Shown piece by piece: positions 44,323-58,204 of a stretch of 64,000 bases of DNA (positions are counted from its first letter, which is position 1; each line of letters begins with the position of its first letter). The stretch covers positions 558,001 through 622,000 of the forward strand of contig BCKL01000006.1 of NCBI GenBank assembly GCA_001600635.1. The letters are read 5' to 3'. The stretch comes from Leucosporidium creatinivorum (Eukaryota; Basidiomycota; Microbotryomycetes; Leucosporidiales; Leucosporidiaceae). Under the pieces are notes generated by a model. That model saw nothing but the letters and a program-made list of their open reading frames with translations, was not told the DNA's origin and did no database searches. The position numbers and the translations under genes are program-made.

Positions 44323-45964
44323 ATGAAGTGCTCTTGCCTTCGTCCTTCTGCTGCATTGCGCTCTGCTACAAGATCATCTCGGACTCCTTCTCTCCTCCCT
44401 TCCACTCGCCCTCCTGCTTCAACTCCCTCTCGCCGCCCTCTCTCCTCCATGCCCGGCCAATCCTCGCCCTCTTCCTACTCGCGCTCTTCCTCGTCGGGCT
44501 CCTCCGCTGGGTCACCGCTAGGCGTAGCTGCTGCCGCTGGTCTCGTAGCCACCGCTGGAGCTCTCTACCTCGTCAAGCAGGCGAGCTCCTCCCCCTTCTT
44601 ACCCCTCGCGCCGGCTTAGCTGACCTCGCAGTCACTTACAGGCATCAGAGCCATTAGCATGCGAAGCTCAACAGCCTGAAGCAGCTGCTGCCCCTACGCT
44701 CAACGGTCTGCCCTCCTTCATCGTGAGTAGCTCGCCTTCGGCAGCATCAGGCGCGTCGCTTCGGGGTTGCGCTGGAAGCTGTACAGCATTCTGGCTGGGC
44801 GTGAGAAGGGTGCAGAAGGATGGATGAATGCGAGAGCAATGAACCTGCAACATTGCAGCCTGAGACGAGCCAAAGCAATCGAAGCTGACCCCATCTCCGA
44901 ACTCCCCCCTTGGCAGCCCTCGCCCGGCGTCGACCTCGACGACGAGTCCATTCCTCTCCGCCTTCGCATGGTCCACCACATCAAGTCCCTCCAATCTACC
45001 ATCTGCACCGCCCTCGAAACTCTGGAGCCAGAAGCTCGCTTCCAATCATCCTACTACCTCCGCGACGCCTCGAAAGGCTTTGGCGATTCCCGAGTCCTGC
45101 AAGGAGGTCAGACGTTCGAGAAGGCGGGATGCAACATCTCGGTCATCAAGTCCACCCTCTCGGTTGCAGCGGTCAGGCAGATGAGGGCCGAGCGGTTCGA
45201 CTGGTGGGATGGAGTCTCGGAGCTGCCCTATTTCGTCGCCGGCTGCTCTCTCGTCGTCCACCCTTCCAACCCTCACGCCCCGACCATCCACTTCAACTAC
45301 CGCTACTTTGAGATCCAAGACCCCAAGGACCCGAACGGCCCTCCCAAGGCCTGGTGGTTCGGCGGAGGAACGGACCTCACCCCTTCCTACCTCTACGACG
45401 AGGATGCCACCCACTTCCACTCGTCCTTCAAAGCCTCCTGCGACAAGCACGACCAATCCTACTACCCGCGCTTCAAGAAGTGGTGCGATACCTACTTCCA
45501 CATCCCCCATCGCGGCGAGTCGCGCGGCATCGGCGGCATCTTCTTCGACGATCTGGCCGACCGGTCGCCCGAGGACTTGTTCCGCTTCGTCAGGGATTGT
45601 AGCAATACCTTCCTCCCCGCCTACTACCCTCTCGTCGAGAAGAGGAGCAAGATGGCCTTCACCGAGGAGGAGAAGAGGTGGCAGCAGTTGAGGAGGGGTC
45701 GCTACGTCGAGTTCAACCTCGTCTACGATCGTGGAACCAAGTTCGGGTTGGCGATGAAGGAGCCGAGGACCGAGAGTATCCTCATGAGTCGTGAGTTTGA
45801 CCCTGCCGCCTTTCTCTGAAGCGCCGAGCTGACCCTCGCTCTCTCTCGCAATCGTAGTGCCGCTCACTACTCGCTTCGAATACCAGCCCGAGATTGGCAC
45901 GATCGAGGGAACACGGGAGAAGCGCATCATGGACGTGTTGCGCAAGCCCGTCGAGTGGGTGTAG
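44323..45964 (+). CDS. HEM13: coproporphyrinogen III oxidase (oxygen-dependent)
   Basis: Four exons (44323-44580, 44642-44722, 44917-45790, 45858-45964) give 439 aa. The N-terminus is Arg/Ser-rich with a hydrophobic Ala/Gly segment (VAAAAGLVATAGALYL), suggesting mitochondrial intermembrane-space targeting. The enzyme domain is unmistakable: FEKAGCNISVIKSTLS, FNYRYFEIQDPK, WWFGGGTDLTPSYLYDEDAT, FHIPHRGESRGIGGIFFDDL and GRYVEFNLVYDRGTKFGL. It catalyses oxidative decarboxylation of coproporphyrinogen III in haem synthesis. The first intron appears to be of the GC-AG kind (44581-44641). The second is unusually long for this window (194 nt). The gene is convergent with the prephenate dehydratase gene, their stops 112 nt apart. 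Confidence 0.93.
44581..44641 (+). other. HEM13: probable GC-AG intron in HEM13
   Basis: The exon ends AAGCAG and the intron begins GCGAGC, with a GCTGACC branch site and a TTACAG acceptor. A GT donor nine bases upstream (GTCAAG) would also keep the frame and lose three residues, so this case is less certain than the others. Confidence 0.6.
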
Positions 45965-51015: not shown

Positions 51016-51455
51016 TAGCAAGAGGTGGTAGCAGGGCCGTGTCGGCGGGCTTGAGGCGCTCTTAAGAATCCCTTAAGTTTCGGTGGAGGCAGGACCCTCC
51101 GGAGTCGTTTAGCGGTTTTTTGGTGCTGTCGTATAGTTTTCTCTTGTTTCGGAACCGTTCGCCCTTCTTGTAAATGATCTCGTCTGATCGTAAACGGCTA
51201 GCGGTGAAGCGAAGCCTCCTCTCTTAGCTCGACTTGAGCCCCACCCGCTTCAACCTCTCTTTCTCTCCCGCTTCTTCCTGCTCGCTCTTGCCTTCCTCTC
51301 CCGACTCGGACTTTCTGGGGATCAACGAACGTTTTCTCCCTACTCATTGCTACTCTTGATACAAAGTAAGCTCGCTTCGTGCTCGAGACGTGTCGCTTGC
51401 TCATTCGTTGGCCTTCACCAGGTCCTCGCCATCGCCTCCACGGTCTCACGAAAGC
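51016..51455. promoter_or_regulatory. intergenic region
   Basis: These 440 nt separate two plus-strand genes. A T-rich stretch near 51115-51175 is probably the 3' end of the first gene. A GTAAGC donor near 51365 and a CCAG acceptor near 51420 suggest a 5'-UTR intron in the next gene. Nothing else is seen. Confidence 0.35.
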
Positions 51456-56675: not shown

Positions 56676-58204
56676 TCAAGCCTTCTCGCCCGTGACGGGA
56701 TCGACCTTGATGTACGTCTCGGCCAATCGCTGCTCGACCCACTTGCCGGCGATGATGGGCTCGTACATGGCGGGTCGCTCGGGCGAGATGCAGGAGGGCA
56801 ACACCTCCAGCAGAGTGTCGTAGTCCGTTCCGAAGAAGAAGGGAAGAGACATCTGCGGAGGAGAGAGTCAGCGCGGGAAAGACTCGGCGCCGAGCTCAGC
56901 CTCAGGCGAAGCACGGCTCACCCTCTCCTTGCCGGTGCGGTTGATGGCGCGGTGGATGGTCGACTTGTAGATGCCGTTTGTCCACCGCTGTAGCTGGTCA
57001 CCGAGGTTGACGACGACTGTGTGAGGTGTGGGGTCAGCGAAGCTCCGAGTCAGGCAGAAGCTCGGCGCAGAAGCTCGGAGCAGGAGCTCGGCGCAGAGGT
57101 GAGCTACTCACTGGTGCGAGGAATAGGAGGAGCCTGAACCCAGTCGCCCGCAGCGTTGAGAACTTGGAGGGCCTGGACGTCGCCGTGCTGGCAAAGGAGC
57201 GTGAAGCACTCAGTGCCGAGGGAGGGGAGGTCAGTTTGGGAGGTCTAGGTCACCTACTGCGGGCATCAGAGTGACTTATTAGTCAGAGTGTGCACCGACT
57301 GGATGCAGGAACATGCAGTCAGTCAGACTATTCACTTGGAAGAGCTTCAAGGACTTACTGCCGATCTCTTTGAGGTCGACCTCGCCGGTCTGCGGAGCTG
57401 TCGGGCGAGCAACTCGCTTCAGCTCCCGCCTAGCAGTGAGAATCAAGTACCCACTCACGATACGACAAGACCCTCATGACCGAGCCGGGGTTGGTGAGGT
57501 ACTTGTTGAAGTAATCCTCCTCGAGGTCAAGCGAGAGGGCGATGAGGGGGAAGAGGCGCTTGCCGAGTCCCATGATGGCGTCCCAAGCGCCTTCCAGAGC
57601 GGGTCGGAAGGCAGGAAGGTCCTCAGCAGGCGGCCAAAGGTTGCCGCTCTTCTTGCCTTCGGACATGACCTGCGAGTCCGAGCCGAGGTCGAACGACTCG
57701 TGAACGTCTCCTCGGGAGGCGGGGTCGACCTGCTCGCCCATCAGGGGAGCGTAGCCTTTGAACGAGTCGCCCTTGTGTAGGTCGACGAGCATCTTCTTGT
57801 CGAGAGGTTGATCGAAGAAGGCTCGGGCTTGAGTGAAGGCGGTTTCCAAGACCTCGTTGGCGATACCGTGGTTCTTGACGTAGAAGAATCCAACGTCGAC
57901 GCATGCCTAGAGTAGCGAAAGGGAGGGTCAGCCTCGGCCGCTGTAGCCTGCAGGGTTGCACGGCGCAGAGCGCCCTTCCAAGCGAGCCTCACCGCTTGGA
58001 TCTGGGGAAGAGGAGTGTTAGCAGAACTACACACGACCTAACAAGTGTACCAAACCCGCTCACCTCGGCCGCCAGAGCTTTCCTGTCCTCGAGATTGGGC
58101 GAGGAGAGCGCCGCGAGGTCGATGATTGGCAGCTCCGTGAAGGCCTTCCCCTCGATGTCATTCGAGATGAGCCTCTCCCCCAAACCAGTCTGAAGAGTCG
58201 TCAT
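56676..58204 (-). CDS. 2-oxoglutarate/Fe(II)-dependent dioxygenase, isopenicillin-N-synthase-like
   Basis: Eight exons on the minus strand (58204-58064, 58001-57993, 57906-57459, 57397-57359, 57298-57280, 57212-57112, 57016-56922, 56852-56676) give 342 aa, the usual length of the family. The DIOX_N domain has TELPIIDLAAL and CVDVGFFYVKNHGI. The iron site is GAHSD plus the distal His in STIHRAI; the co-substrate Arg is in RMSLPFFFG. The DYECFTLLCQHGDVQALQVL segment is typical of fungal members. The joins require a 9-nt exon (IQA), a 19-nt exon and an AT-AC intron at 57213-57279. The substrate is unknown. It lies between two related transcription factors. Confidence 0.85.
57213..57279 (-). other. 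AT-AC intron with U2-like donor
   Basis: On the minus strand this 67-nt intron begins ATAAGT and ends GGCAC. A CTGAC branch site lies 18 nt before its end, like the ordinary introns here. Removing it gives GAHSDYECFTLLCQ, the conserved iron-site segment, and completes the frame of an otherwise normal gene. No GT-AG choice gives this sequence: in frame, the HSD codons are followed at once by TAA. Confidence 0.75.

Follow-up and report, generated by a model that had tools for sequence, protein, structure and literature searches.

U2-dependent AT-AC introns (AT-AC II) are already known, reportedly since their description by Wu and Krainer in 1997, and a yeast double mutant with A at the first and C at the last intron position is said to have been reported by Parker and Siliciano in 1993. 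Both papers are cited in PMC6726248, the second also in PMC8283771. The U2-dependent kind is named in the excerpted text of PMC7072748, which puts AT-AC at 0.019% of annotated fungal introns, and RNA-seq of Trichoderma gave AT-AC ends in 69 of 14,305 junctions (PMC4324775, excerpts); the termini in these fungal surveys are the same as those described here, and the counts in the excerpts are not sorted into U2 and U12 types. Saccharomyces cerevisiae, which has no minor spliceosome, splices an AT-AC protointron in SUT635, and among yeast mutants of a standard intron AT-AC is the most efficient pair after GT-AG, although no standard yeast intron normally uses it (PMC6726248, excerpts). For the rust Phakopsora, the excerpts of PMC2846911 give one predicted U12 GT-AG intron, called by one of two methods and failing the 5' rule, together with two other AT-AC introns. 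Literature on Rhodotorula, Sporobolomyces and Microbotryum contained no mention of AT-AC among the matches listed.

Here we describe one further predicted case, intron 5 of a dioxygenase gene of Leucosporidium creatinivorum, in a stretch of 64,000 nucleotides that we refer to as the window. We regard it as a probable genuine U2-type AT-AC intron (AT-AC II) in a functional gene, putatively removed by the major spliceosome, and give this reading a probability of roughly 0.86. AT-AC ends, a U2-like donor body and branch, and the major spliceosome are what it would share with AT-AC II introns as these are reportedly characterised, the splicing being inferred in our case; it differs in lying in a basidiomycete coding gene, in its 67-nt length, and in being a prediction from sequence. 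The mutant attributed to Parker and Siliciano has the same pair of end bases, engineered there and natural here. The SUT635 protointron is likewise an AT-AC junction in a fungus, its host lacking the minor spliceosome, but it lies in a noncoding RNA in which GT-AG is also used (PMC6726248, excerpts), whereas here a conserved enzyme depends on intron 5 to be intact and no fitting GT-AG alternative was found. The features are as follows.

56676..58204, minus strand: 2OG/Fe(II) dioxygenase gene, 8 exons, 342 aa, with PF14226 and PF03171
57299..57358, minus strand: intron 4, 60 nt, ordinary GT-AG (GTAAGT...CCAG)
57280..57298, minus strand: exon 5, a microexon of 19 nt flanked by introns 4 and 5, which holds the codons of the HSD iron ligands
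57213..57279, minus strand: predicted intron 5 (AT-AC), 67 nt, phase 2, ATAAGT...GGCAC, the best-scoring of 766 joins
57274..57279, minus strand: putative 5' splice site ATAAGT, read from the sequence, with U1 pairing by inspection
57230..57234, minus strand: putative branch site CTGAC, with 57231 as the branch A and a distance of 18 nt from it to the final base of the intron
57213..57214, minus strand: putative 3' splice site AC, read from the sequence, in the context CTCGGCAC
57209..57210, minus strand: nearest AG downstream of the branch (CTGAG), out of frame with this donor and 4 nt past the AC

The minus-strand letters of 57279-57213 are ATAAGTCACTCTGATGCCCGCAGTAGGTGACCTAGACCTCCCAAACTGACCTCCCCTCCCTCGGCAC, and the intron splits the codons GAC TA|T in phase 2, directly after the HSD motif (H216, D218). 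The initial annotation had proposed an AT-AC intron at 57213..57279, directly after the HxD iron-ligand codons, in a complete 342-aa enzyme with all phases consistent; its coordinates and letters are exact, the placement after the iron ligands holds, and the enzyme and its phases are recovered by the 8-exon model, in which removal of intron 5 and six GT-AG introns leaves an unbroken 342-aa frame. The protein contains the DIOX_N and 2OG-FeII_Oxy domains (E 8.2e-29 and 1.1e-24) and matches solved 2OG enzymes, the best being 9ovh_A (E 5.6e-52).

A homology search returned 1,671 proteins; none of the 120 listed is identical (best 74%), and the first 25 of these, at 63-74% identity, formed the sample for the alignment and profile. 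Their source genera, where not named as Microbotryomycetes, are ones that we take to belong to that class. The HxD...H residues H216, D218 and H274 are invariant in this alignment, as are D218, Y219 and E220 as a block across the 25 relatives, while a part of the other listed proteins (P0026-P0059) includes exceptions with DFE, DWE and in one instance DYI, and P0053 has no motif match. The dioxygenase departs from its family in 2 of the 107 columns invariant in the 25 relatives and in 5 of the 49 columns common to 23 or 24; a leave-one-out count of invariant columns gives 0 to 7 differences for the relatives themselves, so no protein decay is seen. Because gene callers seldom allow AT-AC, the clean DYE of the relatives hints that the 25 genes have either no intron or a canonical one at this site. 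Paralogue matches on C12, C40 and C17 of the same genome run unbroken through the intron 5 position, and thus no intron is seen there in these copies. Among the aligned relatives, P0007, P0018 and P0025 have insertions absent from the others that look like retained intron sequence in the annotated proteins.

To ask how far the protein fixes the joint, intron 5 was replaced by every join in the region with any termini, and the 766 joins that kept 330 aa or more open, some of them outside the frame of the family, were scored against the profile of the 25 relatives, from which the query was excluded. The ATAAGT/GGCAC join ranks top at 637.1 bits, with a runner-up at 632.3 bits. The margin is small and due to Y219, and as other joins with unlikely termini lie within 5 bits, the profile alone leaves the exact base unfixed; the runners-up, CTAATA..CTCGG and TAATAA..TCGGC, have no sensible splice termini. 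Retention of intron 5 ends the protein after residue 218. Models with GT/GC..AG ends, in which a single intron replaced either intron 5 or introns 4 and 5, reached at best 614.0 bits with loss of the HSD iron ligands, and none of those tried kept both HSD and an open frame of at least 300 aa. When the 67-mer was shuffled by single letters 300,000 times, 1,191 shuffles had an AT start and AC end, and 5 of these also had ATRNG and a CTRAC whose A lay roughly 14-32 nt before the end.

For comparison with ordinary introns, 53 window introns were chosen from 153 raw candidates by GTRNG, CTRAC, YAG and coding flanks, a selection biased towards the consensus. Intron 5 is ordinary except for its two end bases, and its donor is modest. 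Its length of 67 nt equals the median of the set, and its 18 nt from branch A to last base compares with a median of 20 (range 14-34, n=53). The branch motif CTGAC occurs in 43/53 and CTAAC in 10/53 of these introns, in a set selected for CTRAC. C at -3, present in intron 5, is found in 49/53, and with -1 masked the acceptor context stands at the 75th percentile. With +1 masked, the donor ranks at the 8th percentile, and leaving out the exon bases as well moves it to the 11th; it has A at +3 where 43/53 have G (GTG being usual), and it is preceded by A where G is the commonest last exon base (27/53). The branch and spacing that had been described as those of ordinary introns here are therefore reproduced, as is the U2-like donor body (UAAGU), though with a donor strength in the lower tail.

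Searches of the genome placed U2 above the cut-off at four places and U6 at two. A U1 candidate was found at two places with a perfect AUACUUACCU start and 30.3 bits against a family cut-off of 69.5, and given scores so far under the Rfam cut-off, U1 is seemingly divergent outside its 5' end. The U2 and U6 genes and the U1 candidate carry the usual segments for branch-site and splice-site pairing. The two U1 candidates (L040 and L041, C17:49102-49278 and 51041-51217) have equal scores and opposite orientations, with about 1.8 kb between them, and the four U2 places (L051-L054), all on contig C15, form two equal-score pairs (118.1 and 116.6 bits) with oppositely oriented members. Rfam gave no match in the window, and NCBIfam gave none.

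Intron 5 is most likely removed by the ordinary U2 machinery, as the initial annotation had proposed, and its sequence fits this. By inspection, the 5' splice site can pair at +2 to +6 with AUACUUACCU of the U1 candidate, such that U1 would recognise UAAGU at these positions; U2 would recognise the CTGAC branch site, and U6 would contact the bases at +4 to +6. In the second step, A1 and the last C would substitute for the usual non-Watson-Crick contact between G1 and the last G. Contacts of this kind between snRNAs and intron are well established for U2-type splicing. Counting against the scheme, there are just five continuous U1 pairs at the donor (by inspection), and the same holds for the weak donor context, the AG 4 nt past the AC and the low score of the U1 candidate. 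The intron could have arisen from a GTAAGT...GGCAG ancestor by one change at each end. A broader proposal, to which we would give even odds, is that in a fungus with the major spliceosome alone a GTAAGT...CAG intron has turned to A1 and last C, is now efficiently spliced and yields the sole productive form of a conserved enzyme, such that it would repeat in nature the compensating pair engineered in yeast, perhaps in this lineage only. An introner (recent repeat-borne) origin was rejected, as the genome search found no copy of intron 5 beyond its own.

That intron 5 belongs instead to the minor, U12-dependent class strikes us as extremely unlikely, even though AT-AC ends are frequent among such introns and 18 nt from branch to end would be permissible for them. 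By inspection against the U12 consensus, the donor ATAAGTCA matches ATATCCTT at 3/8 positions and the branch CAAACTGAC matches TTCCTTAAC at 3/9, so that intron 5 has neither a U12-like donor nor a U12-like branch, in keeping with the initial annotation, which had seen no U12 donor or branch; it has instead the AT and AC ends, donor body, branch and ordinary spacing of the U2-type AT-AC kind. No match in the genome was obtained for U12, U6atac or PF18036 (one U11/U12 protein) while U2 and U6 were found, although the control genomes of this search gave no signal either, which leaves the absence of a minor spliceosome unproven. Phakopsora belongs to the same subphylum as this yeast. A U4atac RNA is reported in this rust, but in the excerpts of PMC2846911 it is taken as a remnant and Phakopsora is without a predicted U12 AT-AC intron.

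The model itself could be wrong and a canonical GT/GC-AG intron used in its place, as some models of this kind keep an open frame of at least 300 aa. However, among the one-intron replacements the best falls 23 bits short, relies on a GC donor and has the HxD iron ligands removed or replaced, and we consider this reading hardly credible. Somewhat easier to entertain, and still very improbable, is an ordinary GT-AG intron whose two ends were both misread in sequencing or assembly, or a damaged allele specific to the strain: with a single base altered at either end the intron would read GTAAGT...GGCAG and be an excellent one of the ordinary kind. Two independent errors would be needed exactly at the bases that contact each other, and they would have to yield the known compensating pair, while no decay is seen in the remaining protein. 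On the U2-type AT-AC reading, intron 5 is a modest experiment of nature on how the first and last bases of an intron contact each other, set in a short fungal intron for which the protein permits few alternative joints. Gene prediction that allows GT/GC-AG ends only would miss the active-site motif here. Elsewhere in the window, a coproporphyrinogen III oxidase gene lies at 44767-45819 (+); there is no identical entry among the 120 matches listed (best 85%), and the closest listed entries are about 80-85% identical. Together with the 74% of the dioxygenase, this suggests that the protein collection lacks the species.

In the 27.7-Mb genome the pattern ATAAGT-CTGAC-AC is matched 42 times, several of the matches being alternative ends of a single place, and these amount to 34 distinct sequences. 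An abundant AT-AC class was rejected, since the reversed control pattern has more matches (72). A simple count shows that 30 of the remaining 33 candidates carry GTA/GTG among their first 30 nt or a YAG no more than 45 nt past the branch; L027, L030 and L045 have neither, L027 having GTAAGT further in, and all three fail a coding test with 45-nt flanks. Intron 5, by the same count, has GTA/GTG at +22 and +26 and no YAG in that interval past the branch. Four of the 34 pass this loose test (L018, L020, L021 and L046), and canonical sites adjoin them, of both kinds in three and YAG alone in L021; intron 5 itself fails because its upstream exon is just 19 nt. None of the 34, intron 5 included, passes the stricter test with 90-nt flanks. 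Among the 34 candidates intron 5 alone convinces, the others being judged on weaker evidence because the protein homology test was applied to intron 5 only, and rarity is indicated for the ATAAGT-CTGAC-AC form only. A scan of the window for ATRNG..CTRAC..YAC with coding flanks, which misses intron 5 because of the 19-nt upstream exon, gave 2 matches, taken for chance, compared with 39 for GT-AG, 14 for GC-AG, 11 for GT-AC, 8 for CT-AC and 4 for AT-AG. L024 and L025 (C13:594112 and 624127) are near-identical stretches with about 30 kb between them, oppositely oriented and differing by a short insertion.
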